A DNA stretch of 64,000 nucleotides, taken from contig NZ_CP007453.1 of assembly GCF_000597865.1 (NCBI RefSeq), positions 372,001 through 436,000 on the forward strand. Reading direction: 5' to 3'. This DNA is from Peptoclostridium acidaminophilum DSM 3953. Lineage in GTDB: Bacteria > Bacillota > Clostridia > Peptostreptococcales > Peptostreptococcaceae. Positions 2,470 to 63,808 of the stretch are shown piece after piece. A program made the translations under genes and the position numbers. Numbering within the stretch: position 1 is the stretch's first letter; every line of letters starts with the position of its first letter. The notes under the pieces are model-generated. The model worked only from the letters and a program-made list of their open reading frames with translations, had not been told where the DNA came from and searched no databases.

Positions 2470-2511
2470 ACAAAAACTAAACGCCGCCTGGACATTAGGG
2501 TGCCCAGACGG
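2470..2511 (-). terminator. Riboswitch-controlled intrinsic terminator of pflB
   Basis: On the minus strand an 11-bp stem (arms 2511-2501 and 2494-2484, 6-nt loop) is followed by a U-rich run. The 5' arm is the same CCGUCUGGGC segment that the ZTP aptamer needs for its second domain. Ligand binding should therefore block the terminator and turn pflB on. A further arm at 2457-2448 can pair with the terminator 3' arm. Confidence 0.85.
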
Positions 2512-2575
2512 TCGGCTTATATGAGGATGCGCACTCCCTGTGGTTTATTCCACTTTTCCGCCAGTCATGCGCTCC
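2500..2575 (-). promoter_or_regulatory. ZTP (pfl motif) riboswitch aptamer
   Basis: The minus-strand leader contains the conserved blocks of the ZTP riboswitch in order: GACUGGCGGAA, GUGGAAUAAACCAC (a hairpin), GGGAGU and the 3' block GCCGACCGUCUGGGCA. GGCGG near the 5' end can form the family pseudoknot with CCGUC near the 3' end. The class senses ZMP/ZTP, signalling 10-formyl-tetrahydrofolate shortage. It is named for its occurrence upstream of pfl genes, so the context also fits. The 3' part is shared with the terminator, as expected for an ON switch. Confidence 0.93.
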
Positions 2576-2599
2576 TTGAATTACATGTTGTATACACAT

Positions 2600-24121: not shown

Positions 24122-24136
24122 ATTGAGTAATGTAAT

Positions 24137-24205
24137 ATTTGATTTGAACAGACGGTGCATCAATGCTGCATGCAGTCGGGCTTTGAACGAAGCAGTGGAT
24201 TAAAT
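24137..24205 (+). promoter_or_regulatory. Probable NiCo (czcD) riboswitch aptamer
   Basis: The leader has GAACAGAC, GCAGUCGGGC and GAAGCAGUGG spaced around short hairpins, the repeated CAG-containing blocks of the NiCo four-way junction. A P1 stem (24137-24144 with 24198-24205) closes it. The gene downstream is a CDF exporter, the classic NiCo target. I identify the class from remembered consensus, so a covariance-model test would decide it. Confidence 0.72.
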
Positions 24206-24249
24206 CCATGGGACAATTTTTAAGGTTTTATTGTCCTATGGATTTTTTA
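24202..24249 (+). terminator. Riboswitch-controlled terminator of the CDF gene
   Basis: Sixteen-base arms (24202-24217 and 24230-24245; AAATCCAT.. and ..ATGGATTT) with one mismatch precede a T-run. The 5' arm overlaps the P1 3' strand by four bases, so a metal-bound aptamer would prevent termination. Confidence 0.9.
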
Positions 24250-47427: not shown

Positions 47428-48219
47428 TCATGACAGCAAAATCCTGTCATCCATGAGCTCTTTTTTTCTCTCCTTCGAGTAGTAGGTCAGCAACTCTTCT
47501 ACAGTCATATTGCTGCGCTCATCACCCTTTATATCCAGAATGATTTCGCCTTCATCCATCATAATAGTGCGGTTGCCAGTAGAAAGTGCGGATTTTATGT
47601 CATGCGTTATCATCATCGTCGTGATTTTTGATTCAGCAACAATCTCAGTAGTTATTTTAAGTATTTTCTGGGCTGTAGCCGGGTCGAGGGCTGCCGTATG
47701 CTCATCAAGAAGCAGTAGTTTGGGTGAAGCTATTGTACACATAAGAAGCGTGACAGCCTGCCTTTGGCCGCCAGAGAGAGTCCCTACCTTTGTTTTCATC
47801 CGGTATTCCAAGCCCAGATCTAATGAGGAGAGCAGTTCCCTGAAATGCCAGGAATCCCTCTTGTTCAAGGCAAAAAAGCTCTTCTTGGCCTTTCTGGTAT
47901 ACGCTAGCGCCAGGTTTTCCTCTATGGTCATGGATGGGGCAGTGCCTTTCATCGGATCCTGCATGAGCCTTCCGATGTCAAGCGCCCTTTTATAGTCCGG
48001 ATCTGCGGCGATATTATTGGCGTCTAGAATTATGGCGCCCTTGTCAATATAGAAGGCTCCGCCTATGGCGTTAAAGAGCGTTGACTTTCCGGCGCCGTTT
48101 GAGCCGATTATTGTGACAAAATCACCCGGGTCCAAATGGAGGTTTACAGAGTTTAGGGCTTTTTTTTCATTCACTGTTCCGGGATTAAAGGTTTTAGTTA
48201 CGTTTATCAAATCGAGCAT
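47428..48219 (-). CDS. trpZ: Tryptophan-type ABC transporter ATP-binding protein
   Basis: 263 residues. Walker A IGSNGAGKSTLFN, signature LSGGQRQAVTLLM, Walker B LLLLDEHTAALDP and His-loop MITHD are intact. This is the branched-chain/simple-sugar style ATPase used with TrpX/TrpY. It follows the permease after one base (TAATATG). The start at 48219 is chosen for that coupling; an ATG five codons earlier within trpY is possible. The operon is under the tRNA-Trp T-box. Confidence 0.85.
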   Translation of the reverse strand: MLDLINVTKTFNPGTVNEKKALNSVNLHLDPGDFVTIIGSNGAGKSTLFNAIGGAFYIDKGAIILDANNIAADPDYKRALDIGRLMQDPMKGTAPSMTIEENLALAYTRKAKKSFFALNKRDSWHFRELLSSLDLGLEYRMKTKVGTLSGGQRQAVTLLMCTIASPKLLLLDEHTAALDPATAQKILKITTEIVAESKITTMMITHDIKSALSTGNRTIMMDEGEIILDIKGDERSNMTVEELLTYYSKERKKELMDDRILLS

Positions 48220-48220
48220 A

Positions 48221-49141
48221 TTATTCCAAACCATTTTCAGTCAAATGGTTCTTGACCTCCCTTCTGATTTTTTTCTGCTGCCTGTTTGCTTTTATTGCAG
48301 GCCCTGAAAGAGCTACCATTACAATAACAGCGGAAATAAGCTTCAACGAATATGAAGGGAACAAGTCTATTTTCAAAGCAAATGCCAAGATTATCCTATA
48401 AATGATGGAGCCCACGGCCGCTGAAACGAGTCCGATGGTAACGCTGCGCTTTCCAAATACAGATTCGCCTATGATTACTGACGCCAGACCGATTACCACC
48501 ATGCCGCTTCCTGAGCCAACATCTGAAAAAAGCTGATACTGGCAGATCAAAGCCCCTGAGAGGGCTACGCAGGCGTTGCCCATTGACAGTGCGATGCATT
48601 TGGAAACATTGGCATTTATGGATGAGGAGCGAACCATGTCCTCGTTGTCTCCTGTTGCACGTATGGCAAGGCCAAACCTTGTCTTAAAGGCTACAGCCAG
48701 AATGAGTGTCATTAATATGCATACTGCCAGGGCAAGAAGAGTCCTGCTAATATCGACCGGAGCTCCAATTAAAGATTCTGCCGCAGTAAAAAAAGTCTCA
48801 TTGCCGACTACGGACAGATTGGCCTTGCCGCCCATAATCCCAAGGTTAACTGTATACAGACCTGTCATCACGAGGATTCCCGCCAGTATGGGATGTATGC
48901 TGAGCCTTGTCTGGAGCAGGCCGGTTGCCAAGCCGGCTAATGCGCCGGCAATTACAGCAATGAATAATGCAAGGAAAGGATGGCCACTTATAGTTACAAC
49001 GGCAGCACAAGCCATACCGAGTGAAAAGCTCCCGTCGACAGTCAGGTCCGGCAAATTAAGTATTCGAAATGTTATATAGATTCCCAGGGCCAATACGGCA
49101 TAGAGCAGACCAAGCTGTATGGAACCGATAAGTAATGTCAT
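48221..49141 (-). CDS. trpY: Tryptophan-type ABC transporter permease
   Basis: 306 residues, 8-9 helices, BPD_transp_2 type. FRILNLPDLTVDGSF near residue 28 and SGALICQYQLFSDVGSGSGMVV are characteristic of the YtrF/TrpY branch. The ATG at 49141 lies 9 nt after AGAGAGG; an ATG three codons upstream overlaps that site. It sits between its binding protein and ATPase. Confidence 0.87.
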   Translation of the reverse strand: MTLLIGSIQLGLLYAVLALGIYITFRILNLPDLTVDGSFSLGMACAAVVTISGHPFLALFIAVIAGALAGLATGLLQTRLSIHPILAGILVMTGLYTVNLGIMGGKANLSVVGNETFFTAAESLIGAPVDISRTLLALAVCILMTLILAVAFKTRFGLAIRATGDNEDMVRSSSINANVSKCIALSMGNACVALSGALICQYQLFSDVGSGSGMVVIGLASVIIGESVFGKRSVTIGLVSAAVGSIIYRIILAFALKIDLFPSYSLKLISAVIVMVALSGPAIKANRQQKKIRREVKNHLTENGLE

Positions 49142-49168
49142 AGCAAGCATCCTCTCTTATGATTTCTA

Positions 49169-50152
49169 TTATTTCTTTTCTTCTATGATTACGAATTTTT
49201 CCTTCAAGGCTTCAGGTATTGTTATGCCCAGTTCATTGGCAGTTTTCATGTTGATCATGTTTGAATATTCGGCTATCTGTTCAACTGGATTTTGAGCTAT
49301 TGTTTCACCGTTTACGATACGCACTATCATTGCGGCAGTCTGTTTTCCAAGCACGGTGTAGTCAATTCCAACCGTGGCCAGGGCGCCGTCGGCAACCATT
49401 GAATCGGCTCCAGCATATATTGGAAGCTTGGCGGCATTTGCAACCTGAAGGTAGGTAGGCATAGCCGAAGCTACGGTGTTGTCATTAGGAGTAAAGAAGG
49501 CATCCACCTCGCCAACGAGGGAAGAAGCCGCCTGCTGCAGATCAGTTGTTCCTGTTATTGTAGCCTCTTTGTATTGTATTCCGTTCTTATCGCAGTAATC
49601 CTTTGCCCTTTCAATTCCCGCTGTAGAGTTTATTTCGCTGCTGTTGTAAATAAAGCCGAAGACCTTTGCATCTGGTGTAAGCTCGGCTGCGAGCTTGAAA
49701 ATGTCCTCTATTGCTATAGAATTCGAAACCCCAGTAATATTGCCTGTTGTTTCCTCGAATGACTTCACAAGACCTGCCTCTATAGGATTGCTGACTGCCG
49801 AAAAAACTACAGGCACTGTTGTAGTGGAAGCCATAGCAGCCTGCGCTGTCGGTGTTGCGATTGGAACGAGCATATCCACGTCATCACTTAGCATGTCCTG
49901 CATGATTGAAGGCAGAAGGTTCATGTCGCCGTTGGCGTTCTTGAACTCGATTTCAACCTTGCCACTCATACCCAGCGCATCCAGTTCAGATACTATTGTT
50001 TCGCGAATCTGGTTGAGCGATGGATGATCCATTGGCTGTATTATAGCAATTTTATACACATCATCCTTAGCCGGTTCCTCCTTCCCTGCACATCCTGCCA
50101 AAGTTCCCAAAGCCATGCATCCTACGAGTAAAAGCGATATAAATTTTTTCAT
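49169..50152 (-). CDS. trpX: Tryptophan-type ABC transporter substrate-binding lipoprotein
   Basis: 327 residues, lipobox LAGC (Cys21). ABC_sub_bind family (PF04392 type): KIAIIQPMDHPSLNQIRETI, VPVVFSAVSNPIEAGLV, FGFIYNSSEINS and FTPNDNTVASAMP are in the expected order. Regulation by a tRNA-Trp T-box identifies the ligand class as tryptophan or a precursor. Two related orphan binding proteins lie at 60-62 kb. GGGGGAAA precedes the ATG. Confidence 0.9.
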   Translation of the reverse strand: MKKFISLLLVGCMALGTLAGCAGKEEPAKDDVYKIAIIQPMDHPSLNQIRETIVSELDALGMSGKVEIEFKNANGDMNLLPSIMQDMLSDDVDMLVPIATPTAQAAMASTTTVPVVFSAVSNPIEAGLVKSFEETTGNITGVSNSIAIEDIFKLAAELTPDAKVFGFIYNSSEINSTAGIERAKDYCDKNGIQYKEATITGTTDLQQAASSLVGEVDAFFTPNDNTVASAMPTYLQVANAAKLPIYAGADSMVADGALATVGIDYTVLGKQTAAMIVRIVNGETIAQNPVEQIAEYSNMINMKTANELGITIPEALKEKFVIIEEKK

Positions 50153-50190: not shown

Positions 50191-50475
50191 AACTGCCCTT
50201 ACCATAAGGACAGTTGACATCTGATTTGCCACCTTAATACATTGAATATGAGCTATACTTCCGATTGGAAGAACAATTCTCATAAAGCGAAAATGCCAGC
50301 ACATTTCCTGTTGTTAACGCCAACACACGTCTCGGCTACTAGATTCAAGAGTATACATGAATCTTTCACCTCGCCCTCAATGGTCCATTTGCCAAACAGC
50401 ATCTCCGCAAGGTTTCCAGCATCCCCTGCTCTCTATAGGCGCTTATAAAGGCTTTATATCCACTTCATCAGTTTG
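50191..50475 (-). promoter_or_regulatory. T-box riboswitch, tRNA-Trp specific, with terminator
   Basis: On the minus strand, in order: AGAGAGC (50434-50428) and GGATGCTGGAAACC of Stem I, specifier TGG followed by A (50387-50385), and the T-box AAGGTGGC (50235-50228) whose TGGC would pair with a GCCA tRNA end. Bacterial tRNA-Trp has G at the discriminator, matching TGGC, and TGG is the Trp codon. CTGTCCTT completes the antiterminator or, with AAGGGCAG, an 11-bp terminator (50215-50191) followed by U8. Uncharged tRNA-Trp should switch trpXYZ on. Confidence 0.92.
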
Positions 50476-50484
50476 ATTAGATTT

Positions 50485-60036: not shown

Positions 60037-60065
60037 TTTACATTTGCTCCCTCCTGTGTTAAAAT
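60037..60065 (+). promoter_or_regulatory. Promoter of orphan binding protein 1
   Basis: TTTACA (60037-60042), 17-nt spacer, TAAAAT (60060-60065). The second unit has the same hexamers at the same spacing at 61320-61348. Confidence 0.8.
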
Positions 60066-60076
60066 TGTGTCATGGT

Positions 60077-60154
60077 GAGGCACGCAATAAAATAGAATGT
60101 CTGCTTGAAAAGGCAGGCATGAGTAGGCCCTAGGGGCGAGTAGAAGAGTGCCTT
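60077..60154 (+). promoter_or_regulatory. Structured leader RNA, copy 1 (unassigned riboswitch candidate)
   Basis: A three-way junction: P1 GAGGCAC/GTGCCTT (60077-60083 with 60148-60154), P2 TGTCTGC/GCAGGCA (60098-60104 with 60113-60119), P3 GCCC-UAG-GGGC (60127-60137). The junction strands GTAG and AGTAGAA are identical in copy 2. CCTAGG (60129-60134), part of P3, can pair with CTTAGG (60185-60190) at the Shine-Dalgarno. It resembles no riboswitch class I know. Confidence 0.7.
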
Positions 60155-60201
60155 GCAGATGTAGACACACTTAAAATTACAAATCTTAGGAGGATGGTAG
60201 T

Positions 60202-61182
60202 ATGGTTAGGAAACTCATATCTGTTTTTTGTGCTTCAATTCTTTTGTCCACTTCTTTAATGGCTGGCTGCACTAAGGCATCGGGCGATTTGTCAGCTTCA
60301 GAATCCAAAACTTACAAAATCGGAATTTCACAGATTGTTGAGCACCCTGCCCTTGACGATGCAAGAAAGGGAATAATTGACGCGCTCAAGGAAGAAGGCT
60401 TTGTGGATGGGGAGAACCTGGAAATCGACTTTCAAAACGCCCAGGGCGACATGCCAACAGCCCAGACAATCGCTGACGGATTCGTTTCAGCCAAGAAAGA
60501 CTTGATTGTTGCCATTGCCACGCCATCAGCGCAGGCTGCGGCCAATGCTACAAAGGACATTCCCATAGTATTTACTGCAGTGACCGATCCCGTAGCTGCA
60601 GGTCTTGTAGCTGCTCTTGAAAAGCCCGGTGGCAATGTGACAGGCTCAAGCGATGCGGCGCCTATGGAAAAGCAATTCGAGCTTGTGAAAACTCTGGTTC
60701 CTAAAGCTAAGAGGATGGGAATCATATACAACACAAGCGAGGCCAACTCAATTGCACAGGTGGACAAGGCCAAGGAGCTTTCTGCCAAATTCGGCTTAGA
60801 AATAGTAGAAATAGGAATAACAACGGTAAACGACATCGATCAGGCACTTAGCTCGGCAAAGGGGGAAATTGACGTGCTCTATACTCCTACAGACAATATA
60901 GTTGCATCGGCAATGCCTCTAATAGCCAACAAGTGCATCGAAAACAAACTTCCTCTTATAGGAGCAGAAGACGCCCATGTCAAGAGCGGAGCCCTAGCCA
61001 CAGAAGGCATAAGCTACTATAACCTGGGACTGCAGACAGGCAAAATGGCAGCCAGGATACTAAAGGGCGAAGCGGCGCAGGACATGCCTGTAGGATTCCT
61101 TGAGAATACAGAGCTTTCAATAAATGACGAGACTGCCAAGCGTATTGGGCTAGATATACCAGAGAGTCTTAATAAAAAGTAA
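60202..61182 (+). CDS. Orphan ABC substrate-binding lipoprotein 1 (TrpX family)
   Basis: 326 residues, lipobox MAGC (Cys23). PF04392-type binding protein: KIGISQIVEHPALDDARKGI, IPIVFTAVTDPVAAGLV, MGIIYNTSEANS, YTPTDNIVASAMP. It is clearly related to TrpX at 49-50 kb and about 80% alike to the next gene. No permease or ATPase is adjacent, so it probably feeds trpYZ or a distant system. AGGAGG lies 8 nt before the ATG. The leader RNA presumably senses its ligand or a product. Confidence 0.9.
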   Translation: MVRKLISVFCASILLSTSLMAGCTKASGDLSASESKTYKIGISQIVEHPALDDARKGIIDALKEEGFVDGENLEIDFQNAQGDMPTAQTIADGFVSAKKDLIVAIATPSAQAAANATKDIPIVFTAVTDPVAAGLVAALEKPGGNVTGSSDAAPMEKQFELVKTLVPKAKRMGIIYNTSEANSIAQVDKAKELSAKFGLEIVEIGITTVNDIDQALSSAKGEIDVLYTPTDNIVASAMPLIANKCIENKLPLIGAEDAHVKSGALATEGISYYNLGLQTGKMAARILKGEAAQDMPVGFLENTELSINDETAKRIGLDIPESLNKK

Positions 61183-61207
61183 TCAAATCAAATATAAATC
61201 AAATTCT

Positions 61208-61260
61208 AAAGGCGCATTCGTATTGCTGAGTATAAACAGAGATATGAATGCTCCTTTTTC
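61208..61260 (+). terminator. Terminator after orphan binding protein 1
   Basis: AAAGG-GCATTC-TAT and ATA-GAATGC-CCTTT arms with small mismatches, 18-nt loop, T-run. Confidence 0.85.
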
Positions 61261-61319
61261 GTTTTTGAATCATCTGCTAGCTGATCCGCTGTATTTATAC
61301 GGAGAAAGTGACTGAATCC

Positions 61320-61348
61320 TTTACATATAAAAGGATGCATGTTAAAAT
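61320..61348 (+). promoter_or_regulatory. Promoter of orphan binding protein 2
   Basis: TTTACA (61320-61325), 17-nt spacer, TAAAAT (61343-61348), the same layout as copy 1 although the spacer differs in sequence. Confidence 0.8.
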
Positions 61349-61359
61349 CATTTAATAAT

Positions 61360-61434
61360 AAGACGCTTTAAGTGTAGGGCCTGATATTATATGCAGGCTT
61401 TTGTAGGCCCTGGGGGCAAGTAGAAATGCGTCTT
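61360..61434 (+). promoter_or_regulatory. Structured leader RNA, copy 2 (unassigned riboswitch candidate)
   Basis: P1 AAGACGC/GCGTCTT (61360-61366 with 61428-61434), P2 GCCTG/CAGGC (61379-61383 with 61394-61398), P3 GCCC-UGG-GGGC (61407-61417). Relative to copy 1, P1 shows compensatory changes at two base pairs while the junction sequence GTAGGCCCT and AGTAGAA is unchanged. CCTGGG (61409-61414) can pair with CTCAGG (61465-61470) at the Shine-Dalgarno. Confidence 0.7.
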
Positions 61435-61481
61435 ATCAGCAGCAACAATCCTAAAAATTCAAATCTCAGGAGGATGGTAGT

Positions 61482-62462
61482 ATGGTTAGAAAAATCGTAT
61501 CTGTTTTTTGTGCTTCAATTATTTTGTCCACTTCGTTAATGGCTGGCTGCTCTAAGGCTCCAGCTGATTCTTCAGCTTCAGGAAGCAAAACCTACAAAAT
61601 AGGCATTACGCAGATTGTAGAACACCCTGCCCTTGACGATTCAAGAAAGGGCATTATTGACGCTCTCAAGGAAGAGGGTTTTGTGGAGGGTGAGAATCTC
61701 GAAATTGATTTTCAAAATGCCCAGGGCGACATGCCAACAGCCCAGACAATAGCCGAAGGCTTTGTGTCGGCAAAAAAAGATATGATAGTGGCTTTATCAA
61801 CACCTTCATCGCAGGCGGCTGTAAATGCGACAAAGGAGATCACAATAGTATTTACTGCAGTAACTGACCCGGTAGGCGCAGGTCTTGTAGCTTCACTTGA
61901 AAAACCAGGCGGAAATGTAGCGGGAATAAGCGCTGCCGCGCCTACGGAAAAGCAGTTCGAGCTTTTGAAAACGCTAGTGCCGAATGCCAAGAAGGTGGGC
62001 ATATTATACAACACAAGCGAGGCAAACTCAATTTTCCAGGTGAACACAGCCAAAGCGATTTCAAGCAAATTCGGAATCGGAATAGTTGAAATAGGCATAA
62101 CATCATCAAACGACATTGACCAATCCCTAAGCTCGGTCATGGGAAAAATCGACGTTCTCTATACGCCAACTGACAATATCGTATCATCTTCAATGCCCAT
62201 GGTAGTCAATAAGTGTATAGAAAACAAGCTGCCGTTGATAGCTGCAGAGGAAGCTGCAGTCAAAGCCGGCGCACTTGCCACAGACGGTATAAACTACTAC
62301 AATCTTGGACTGCAGACAGGCAAAATTGCAGCTAGGATACTAAGGGGTGAAGCGCCACAAGATATACCTGTAGGAGCCCCTGAAAATACAGAGCTTGTGA
62401 TAAATGAAGAGACTGCTAAGAGCATAGGAATAACAATTCCGGAAAGCCTTAGGAAAAAATAA
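61482..62462 (+). CDS. Orphan ABC substrate-binding lipoprotein 2 (TrpX family)
   Basis: 326 residues, same length and signal (lipobox MAGC, Cys23) as copy 1. Framework motifs are kept (VEHPALDDSRKGI, VFTAVTDPVGAGLV, ILYNTSEANS, YTPTDNIVSSSMP), but pocket-side segments differ, for example STPSSQ for ATPSAQ and GISAAAP for GSSDAAP, so ligand preference may have shifted. Duplication of the whole promoter-leader-gene unit is the simplest history. No transport partners are adjacent. Confidence 0.9.
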   Translation: MVRKIVSVFCASIILSTSLMAGCSKAPADSSASGSKTYKIGITQIVEHPALDDSRKGIIDALKEEGFVEGENLEIDFQNAQGDMPTAQTIAEGFVSAKKDMIVALSTPSSQAAVNATKEITIVFTAVTDPVGAGLVASLEKPGGNVAGISAAAPTEKQFELLKTLVPNAKKVGILYNTSEANSIFQVNTAKAISSKFGIGIVEIGITSSNDIDQSLSSVMGKIDVLYTPTDNIVSSSMPMVVNKCIENKLPLIAAEEAAVKAGALATDGINYYNLGLQTGKIAARILRGEAPQDIPVGAPENTELVINEETAKSIGITIPESLRKK

Positions 62463-62503: not shown

Positions 62504-62598
62504 AAAACGGCTCCCTTGAGGCATGAACCGACCCCCAAAAGTTAGACCTAAAAATCTAACTTATTGGGGTCACATCAATTCCCAGGGGAGCCGTTTTT
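62504..62598. terminator. Bidirectional terminator carrying an inverted-repeat insert in its loop
   Basis: AAAACGGCTCCC (62504-62515) and GGGAGCCGTTTT (62586-62597) pair perfectly and are flanked by A- and T-runs. The loop is 70 nt and contains a second palindrome described separately. It lies between convergent genes. Confidence 0.85.
62530..62571. repeat. 42-bp palindrome resembling paired IS3-type ends
   Basis: GACCCCCAAAAGTTAGA (62530-62546) and TCTAACTTATTGGGGTC (62555-62571) are inverted copies with one mismatch and one shifted base, 8 nt apart. The GACCCC-AAAAGTTAGA pattern resembles terminal repeats of IS3-family elements. Internal sequence and transposase are absent. Confidence 0.55.
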
Positions 62599-63808
62599 AA
62601 ATATTATTTTCATTAGAGTTAAGGACTGATATCTGTTCGTTTAGTCTGATATCTTTCGAACTTTTGAGAAAAATTGCAAGAATTGCAGCCAGCAACGGTA
62701 TCAAAAACAGAAGCTGCATAGCAGCATCAATGCCAAATATGTCAGCGTATCGCCCAACGAGAGATACGGCAAGGCCGCCTATGCCGACAGCAAAACCCAT
62801 GCTAAGGCCTGAAGCCAGGGCAGTGTTTTCAGGGATGAGCTCCTGAGCCACAACCACTGTTACTGAAAACGACGATAAAAGAGCCATGGTGCCAATTCCA
62901 AGCAGTATGAACGAAACAGGCCCCGAGAGCGCAAAGAAACCGTAAAACGCTGCAGAAGCCAGGAGCATCGAGAAGAACATGAGCGGCTTTCTTCCGAAGC
63001 GGTCTGATATATAGCCGCCGATAATGCCTCCAACAGAACCGGCTGTAAGAGCAGCAAATATAAGAGAGCCTGTAAACTGCGCCGAAAAATTTCTGGATAG
63101 AAAGTATATTGGAAGCAGTGTCATGAGTCCCGTATGCACGACCGAGCGAAGGACTACAATGGCAATTAGCTTGAAAAGCTCTGAATTTGAGGAGTTTCCG
63201 ATGCTTTTCAAAAGCAGCCCTAGCTGTGGGGCATCCTGCTTTTTTGATGTCTCGATTCTGGGTGCATAAAAATATAGCAGCATTGCGGCAAGCAGTCCCG
63301 GGAATATAGCCACCCATGTATATTCGACGCCATAGTTGCTGAAAAGAGGCAGAAGAAGCATGGGGCTGATGGCGAGTCCCAGATTGCCCATTGCAATGAA
63401 TGCTGACATAACAAGTCCCTTGTTGTTTCTGCTCGACATGCCGACCATTGAGGCGGCCTGAGGGTGGAACGCGGCGGTACCCATGCCTGCCGCTGCCGCA
63501 ACCAGCATTAGAAGCGCCGTATTTGAGATATAGCCGGTCATGCTCAGCAGCACAGCCATCCAGAGCGTACCAATGTGCACAAACCATCGTTGTCCTCTTT
63601 GGTCGATGAGATAGCCAAAAATCGGCTGAGCAATTGATGAGCTTATAGTAAACGTTGCTATTATAAGAGTTCCGGCTGATACCGACAGCTTATTGCCGAG
63701 TATAAGCACGGCTGTAAGCTGGGGCAGGAAATTTGCATACATATCGTTCATCATGTGGGCGAAGAAAAGTATTGTTATAGAGGCTATGCCTATATTTTTG
63801 TTGTTCAT
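62597..63808 (-). CDS. MFS transporter, fosmidomycin-resistance (Fsr)-like
   Basis: 403 residues, twelve helices. FFAHMMNDMYANFLPQL in helix 1, IFGYLIDQRGQRW, GMGTAAFHPQAAS and GYISDRFGRKPLM are motifs of the Fsr branch of the major facilitator superfamily. It is an exporter of unknown compounds, perhaps of metabolites. AAGGAG precedes the ATG at 63808; an upstream in-frame start lacks a site. Confidence 0.85.
   Translation of the reverse strand: MNNKNIGIASITILFFAHMMNDMYANFLPQLTAVLILGNKLSVSAGTLIIATFTISSSIAQPIFGYLIDQRGQRWFVHIGTLWMAVLLSMTGYISNTALLMLVAAAAGMGTAAFHPQAASMVGMSSRNNKGLVMSAFIAMGNLGLAISPMLLLPLFSNYGVEYTWVAIFPGLLAAMLLYFYAPRIETSKKQDAPQLGLLLKSIGNSSNSELFKLIAIVVLRSVVHTGLMTLLPIYFLSRNFSAQFTGSLIFAALTAGSVGGIIGGYISDRFGRKPLMFFSMLLASAAFYGFFALSGPVSFILLGIGTMALLSSFSVTVVVAQELIPENTALASGLSMGFAVGIGGLAVSLVGRYADIFGIDAAMQLLFLIPLLAAILAIFLKSSKDIRLNEQISVLNSNENNI

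Follow-up and report, generated by a model that had tools for sequence, protein, structure and literature searches.

GUAG-bearing leaders and a HutP-like protein as a candidate regulatory system for transporter genes in Peptoclostridium and other Clostridia

Most of what is known about HutP comes from a single operon. A second protein, the trp RNA-binding attenuation protein TRAP (MtrB), recognizes UAG repeats that follow one another at a step of 5 to 6 nt, and it governs Trp genes through both attenuation and translation control. For the hut antitermination system of Bacillus subtilis (PF09021), one report describes the HutP targets as clusters of three NAG (PMC7430163). Genes of the TrpX type have a further described mode of control, wherein trpX of S. 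suis is reported to be subject to a T-box and to serve tryptophan uptake (PMC9382623).

The window analysed here, a stretch of 64,000 nucleotides from Peptoclostridium acidaminophilum DSM 3953, contains two leaders that, as an earlier note had described, share a promoter, the stems P1, P2 and P3 and a set of fixed junction bases, and that each precede a gene whose product belongs to PF04392 (Table 1). Both products score below the curated cut-off of 390 for the TrpX equivalog NF041285 (338.4 and 321.1 bits). Promoter-like sites with the score found in both copies number 6 in the region, compared with 2.6 in shuffled sequences. When folding is compared with that of shuffles, copy 1 has a z score of -4.66 and copy 2 a z score of -1.89. 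The earlier note had also placed the leaders outside the RNA classes known to it, which is borne out by Rfam, where there is no match at gathering score and all leader matches have E > 6; membership in a known RNA family was rejected for this reason. The leaders at ten relatives' loci were likewise without an Rfam match. The window leaders are a real, structured and duplicated RNA that is in no Rfam family. A scan found no terminator-like site in either of them, and no upstream peptide with Trp codons is visible by eye.

Table 1. Positions of the leader elements and associated genes (window coordinates unless a contig is named).
Feature	Position	Strand	Basis or remark
Promoter-like TTTACA-17-TAAAAT, copy 1	60037..60065	+	consensus scan, 10/12 matches
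Promoter-like TTTACA-17-TAAAAT, copy 2	61320..61348	+	consensus scan, 10/12 matches
Leader structure P1-P2-P3, copy 1	60076..60155	+	sequence, folding, covariation
Leader structure P1-P2-P3, copy 2	61359..61435	+	sequence, folding, covariation
P1, copy 1	60076-60083 with 60148-60155	+	
P1, copy 2	61359-61366 with 61428-61435	+	
P2, copy 1	60097-60106 with 60111-60120	+	
P2, copy 2	61377-61386 with 61391-61400	+	
P3, copy 1	60127-60130 with 60134-60137	+	
P3, copy 2	61407-61410 with 61414-61417	+	
Region before and over start codon, copy 1	60161..60209	+	UAG at 60161, 60186, 60197, 60206
Shine-Dalgarno AGGAGG, copy 1	60188-60193	+	
Shine-Dalgarno AGGAGG (61468-61473) and start codon, copy 2	61466..61489	+	UAG at 61477, 61486
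Orphan TrpX-type binding protein 1 (PF04392)	60202..61182	+	profile match
Orphan TrpX-type binding protein 2 (PF04392)	61482..62462	+	79% identical to protein 1
HutP2 gene	G000:C1:1877312-1877719 (other contig)		near complete binding-protein/permease/ATPase operon

The junction strands of copy 1 carry AUAG at 60092 and GUAG at 60123 and 60140, and those of copy 2 carry GUAG at 61374, 61403 and 61420, so that each strand holds one such element. We consider it probable, from sequence comparison, that the window leaders are folded, GUAG-based RNA sites for a HutP-family protein, termed HutP2 here, which would lower transporter expression and would respond to an aromatic effector. We infer both the RNA binding and its stoichiometry, in which HutP2, like HutP, would form an oligomer and recognize UAG elements in groups of roughly three. 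Its target in most relatives would be a linear cluster, GUAG-N4-GUAG-N4-GUAG, and in Peptoclostridium the P1-P2-P3 junction would present one (G/A)UAG per strand, with P2 and P3 serving as hairpin spacers. Clusters of three NAG are present in the relatives' arrays, and are present in the window copies only if the AUAG at 60092 is counted.

The other contig has a third core, GTAGGCCCTAGGGGCGCGTAGGA, ahead of a binding-protein/permease/ATPase operon (L003), and the binding protein of this operon is 77% identical to that of window copy 1. The TrpX-type genes in the window, which the earlier note had called orphans, are therefore orphans only in their local setting, since a complete operon with the same core exists elsewhere in the genome; the orphan proteins probably share the permease of that operon. 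The one other Peptoclostridium genome examined (G036) has one copy with P1 (L009) and one without (L010). Among these five homologous leaders, P1 is absent from two as read from the sequence (L003 and L010), because a TTGACT-17-TATAAT promoter leaves no room for its 5′ strand. A core of 23 nt is invariant in copies whose flanks differ, and in L003 and in L010 the core contains just two GUAG. When up to three mismatches are allowed, the core is matched in 3 of 71 genomes of the family, the third match (L008, sister genus G035) lying inside an ORF of 231 aa. In a collection of 84,980 species, the exact core pattern is present twice in a single Peptoclostridium MAG, at sites whose contig coordinates identify them as those of G036, and at one proteobacterial site that looks like a chance occurrence; viral contigs gave no match to the exact pattern. 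A tblastn search of plasmids returned 157 records, every one below 60% identity, and these were left out of the analysis.

The leaders of the nearest homologous genes contain repeated GUAG, and it was these UAG repeats in the relatives that led us to consider TRAP or HutP as the binder. HutP (PF09021) is above cut-off in 14 of the 71 family genomes, each of which has a copy whose start is 0.8 to 5.9 kb away from that of a PF04392 gene. We counted GTAG in the 300 nt upstream of 62 PF04392 genes. There are 3 to 13 in the 14 HutP-linked leaders, 3 or 4 in the three Peptoclostridium orphan leaders, two before a divergent second PF04392 copy near HutP in G067, and none or one in the remaining 44 leaders, one of which had only 9 nt of upstream sequence. 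Genomes of genus g22 have 9 to 13 GUAG per leader. In the sister genus G035, two GUAG are separated by a GCCGC-AGGCC-GCGGC hairpin that resembles P3 but has a different sequence. The excess of GTAG relative to shuffles is modest for individual Peptoclostridium leaders (p 0.016 and 0.008 for the window copies, p 0.072 for L009).

The HutP2 gene is on a contig other than that of the window, and therefore its product must act in trans on the window copies. Three HutP2 proteins, including that of the window's genome (151.6 bits), match PF09021 (the others at 149.5 and 150.2 bits), and none of the three matches NF002838, the equivalog model for HutP. The window's genome also encodes a canonical HutP paralogue, which matches NF002838 at 184.3 bits, matches solved HutP structures and adjoins hutH-like, hutU-like and formiminotransferase-like genes; a comparison of HutP2 with the PDB gave no convincing match. 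We take His 73, 77 and 138 of HutP to be the positions of the metal and histidine ligands. Of these positions, 73 and 77 are Gly in 8 of 8 HutP2 proteins and His 138 is retained; HutP2 has another invariant His ahead of the ligand site. Judged from these residues, the effector of HutP2 is likely to be something other than histidine.

HutP2 and the hut system have the Pfam family and the UAG clusters in common, and the leaders of many relatives have a terminator-like hairpin. The two differ in that HutP2 misses NF002838 and has no His at positions 73 and 77, in that its target is a transporter operon with the start codon inside the site, and in that no terminator was found in the window copies. 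They differ also in repeat geometry. The canonical hutP-hutH leader of the window's genome (L095:4700-5560, minus strand), as read from the sequence, has UAG-CUAU-UAG-ACAU-UAG directly before a strong terminator, which is a 7-nt step compared with the 8-nt step of GUAG in HutP2 arrays. The three UAG of this hut leader fit the three-NAG clusters described in the HutP report (PMC7430163).

The geometry of the arrays bears on how HutP2 might act. Statistics were compiled for 29 arrays, leaving out two of 31 starts that belong to the second copies L098 (one GTAG) and L213 (none), and all 31 were used for start contexts. The 29 arrays contain 173 GTAG, compared with 38.8 in shuffles, and 9 CTAC. 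The commonest step between GTAG elements is 8 nt (77 cases), followed by 9 nt (18 cases), and the relatives' arrays take the form GUAG-N4-GUAG on the sense strand only. Because GTAG-N-ATG occurs at 26 and ATGGTAG at 24 of the 31 starts, the start codon usually falls within a GUAG-N4-GUAG pair. In the 320 nt covered, 19 of the 29 arrays are preceded by a promoter with at least 9/12 matches. Array and gene are separated by a terminator-like hairpin at 21 of 29 loci under strict criteria and at 34 of 41 under looser ones. The last GUAG and the bases that follow it (GUAGGAGA in many families, GUAGGGAAA in f14) are complementary to the 5′ side of this terminator. This pairing scores 13.09, compared with 11.53 when arms are swapped between loci (0/1000, with kinship uncorrected), a first version of the test having been indecisive (5.81 versus 5.37). 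Stable hairpins of unrelated sequence stand between GUAGs at L171, L212 and L213 (0/100 shuffles as good) and at L077 (7/100), and 7 of the 45 inter-GUAG gaps tested for hairpins reach p 0.05.

In the mechanism that we propose, binding of the leader by effector-loaded HutP2 would cause transporter expression to fall. In most relatives, the bound protein would block the last GUAG from pairing with the 5′ arm of the terminator, so that the terminator forms, and HutP2 would also cover a start codon set between UAG elements. Because no terminator was found in the window leaders, control there would be translational. Start-codon occlusion is the likely route in Peptoclostridium. As to the effector, an aromatic amino acid is probable, because the associated genes include the TrpX family, a chorismate mutase and a neurotransmitter-type symporter, and because these leaders alternate with T-boxes. 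We infer the sign of control, as we do this effector, and repression is favoured because the sites overlap both the start codon and the predicted antiterminator.

The sign could also be the opposite, because HutP activates in hut, where the canonical protein is an antiterminator according to the report cited above (PMC7430163). Effector-loaded HutP2 would then open the terminator or the start site, and uptake would be induced. We regard activation as doubtful, given that it is the predicted antiterminator strand, and not the terminator stem, with which the last GUAG overlaps, and that UAGs flank the start codon.

The earlier note had read the leaders as a candidate undescribed riboswitch, wherein P1-P2-P3 would form the aptamer and a ligand would free the Shine-Dalgarno sequence from the 5′ strand of P3. 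Both the compensatory changes in P1 and the invariance of the 23-nt core amid differing flanks are consistent with this. Among copies 1 and 2 and L009, pairing in P1 is complete (100%) with 2 of 8 pairs altered on both sides, P2 keeps its pairing with a compensatory change in 1 of 10 pairs, and P3 is invariant, with 0 of 4 pairs changed. Values as high as those observed also arise in 21 to 74 of 500 shuffles, and because only three sequences bear P1 we consider the covariation suggestive rather than strong. The pairing of the P3 5′ strand with the Shine-Dalgarno sequence (CCTNGG/CTYAGG) holds in both window copies and in L003, but a U-C mismatch interrupts it in L009 and L010, and the proposed switch was rejected because of these two mismatched leaders among five. 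Further evidence against a riboswitch is the absence of P1 from two of the five leaders, the confinement of the core to one genus, and the fact that the same operon elsewhere has GUAG arrays without this structure. The search for homologues that the note had called for did not widen the distribution, since model R1, used with strict filters on 297 genomes of the order, matched two, both Peptoclostridium. A riboswitch that acts without protein is unlikely, and we assign it quite a small probability.

TRAP, or a relative too distant to be detected, would account for UAG repeats before a tryptophan-type transporter in an attenuation layout, and TRAP likewise combines attenuation with start-site occlusion and with amino acid uptake. 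It is a protein unrelated to HutP2 and its repeat step of 5 to 6 nt differs from the 8 nt seen here. PF02081 reaches its cut-off in none of the 71 family genomes (best 17.9 bits, cut-off 21.3) and has no match at E 0.001 in the window's genome, and TRAP was rejected as the binder for its absence above cut-off in the 71 genomes; the prospect of such a protein is very slim. That a transcription factor uses the GTAG elements as operators on DNA is hardly credible, since only the palindromic character of GCCC-N3-GGGC as DNA speaks for it, and the strand bias (173 GTAG versus 9 CTAC), the unrelated hairpins between elements, the overlap with start codons and the promoters that precede 19 of the 29 arrays speak against it.

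Binding by HutP2 is also consistent with the distribution of arrays beyond the family. Of the genomes sampled, 124 of 391 from the class and 67 of 393 from the order encode HutP2-like proteins. At 19 of 60 fetched HutP2 loci, genes for a binding protein, a permease and an ATPase are nearby, and chains of at least three GTAG at steps of 7 to 10 nt were found at 16 of these 19 loci versus 1 of the 41 others (a plain tandem repeat at L213 was excluded from the count). GUAG recurs in at least ten families as linear arrays that lack the three-way junction and are linked to a HutP-family gene. The 41 loci without a transporter beside HutP2 mostly have no arrays nearby, and the one among them with such a chain, L189, has it before a gene for a type I chorismate mutase (PF07736). 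A chorismate mutase homologue is beside HutP2 in 16 loci, mostly without arrays. Loci of the L083 type (L174-L199) often have HutP2 before aroH-cmk or cmk clusters and mostly lack GUAG arrays, and the same is true of family f10, where HutP2-like genes precede comEC-like genes. These chorismate mutase, cmk-like and comEC-like neighbours indicate that the HutP2 family is mixed, and profile scores of linked (185-253 bits) and unlinked loci (141-235 bits) overlap.

We also compared leaders between genomes with and without HutP2 across the class. At least three GTAG are present in 26 of 52 leaders from HutP2-positive genomes versus 2 of 33 from HutP2-negative ones (Fisher p 1.4e-5), these 85 leaders being a chosen sample among the matches listed (135 genomes with a match) to which several genomes contribute two. 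The other 26 of the 52 have fewer than three. When 11 of the 26 GTAG-rich leaders, from places already analysed, are removed, the proportions are 15 of 41 versus 2 of 33 (p 0.002), and for chains of at least three at new places they are 6 of 41 versus 1 of 33, which is not significant (p 0.12). One leader from a genome with no HutP2 match (L336; G601, 83% complete) has nine GTAG before a binding-protein gene.

Ten triple GTAG sites were picked among the matches listed. Three of them (L253, L254 and L255) precede the same operon, with HutP2 elsewhere in the genome. Two others, again among the matches listed, lie directly before a sodium:solute symporter (L257; PF00474) and a sodium:neurotransmitter-type symporter (L259; PF00209), which suggests a wider regulon. 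One is 286 nt upstream of an HMGL-like gene, and the remaining four among those listed (L256, L258, L260 and L261) have no regulatory placement, being inside an ORF, at its end or at a distance from any ORF.

Judged from sequence, HutP2 seems to govern the uptake of amino acids in many Clostridia. The fullest form of the proposal is that a widespread, undescribed Clostridia branch of HutP has become a TRAP-like regulator that senses aromatic amino acids and recognizes GUAG arrays, with transporters and, in a single genome, chorismate mutase as its targets, that it acts by attenuation together with start-codon occlusion, and that it has a Peptoclostridium target rebuilt as a three-way junction presenting three elements; we hold the chances of this whole account to be evenly balanced. 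If true, it would be a second solution to sensing through UAG repeats, unrelated to TRAP, and the leaders would be a case in which an apparent riboswitch is a folded protein-binding site. Because 124 of 391 Clostridia genomes carry HutP2-like proteins, a common gene would gain a testable RNA code (GUAG at an 8-nt step) and an amino acid uptake regulon. In the open-access literature, as covered by titles and the beginnings of abstracts, no description of GUAG/HutP2 leaders was found.

T-boxes are a common alternative for these genes, because a T-box-like core, GTGGTACCGC, is present in 20 of 59 newly fetched leaders. The window genes share the transporter family of trpX, and the leaders studied here differ from those of T-box systems in having GUAG elements instead of a T-box. 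The window's other TrpX-type operon (47428-50152, minus strand; binding protein, permease-like and ATPase-like genes) does have a T-box leader (50203-50477, minus strand), which scores 49.5 bits, below the Rfam cut-off of 93, is followed by a terminator and has by eye the specifier UGG (Trp). Elsewhere in the window, Rfam matches are present for the ZMP/ZTP riboswitch (2495-2578, minus strand) and the NiCo riboswitch (24134-24218, plus strand). Downstream of the second PF04392 gene, an inverted repeat, CGGCTCCC...GGGAGCCG, lies at 62510-62600 and is perhaps a shared terminator or a small mobile remnant.
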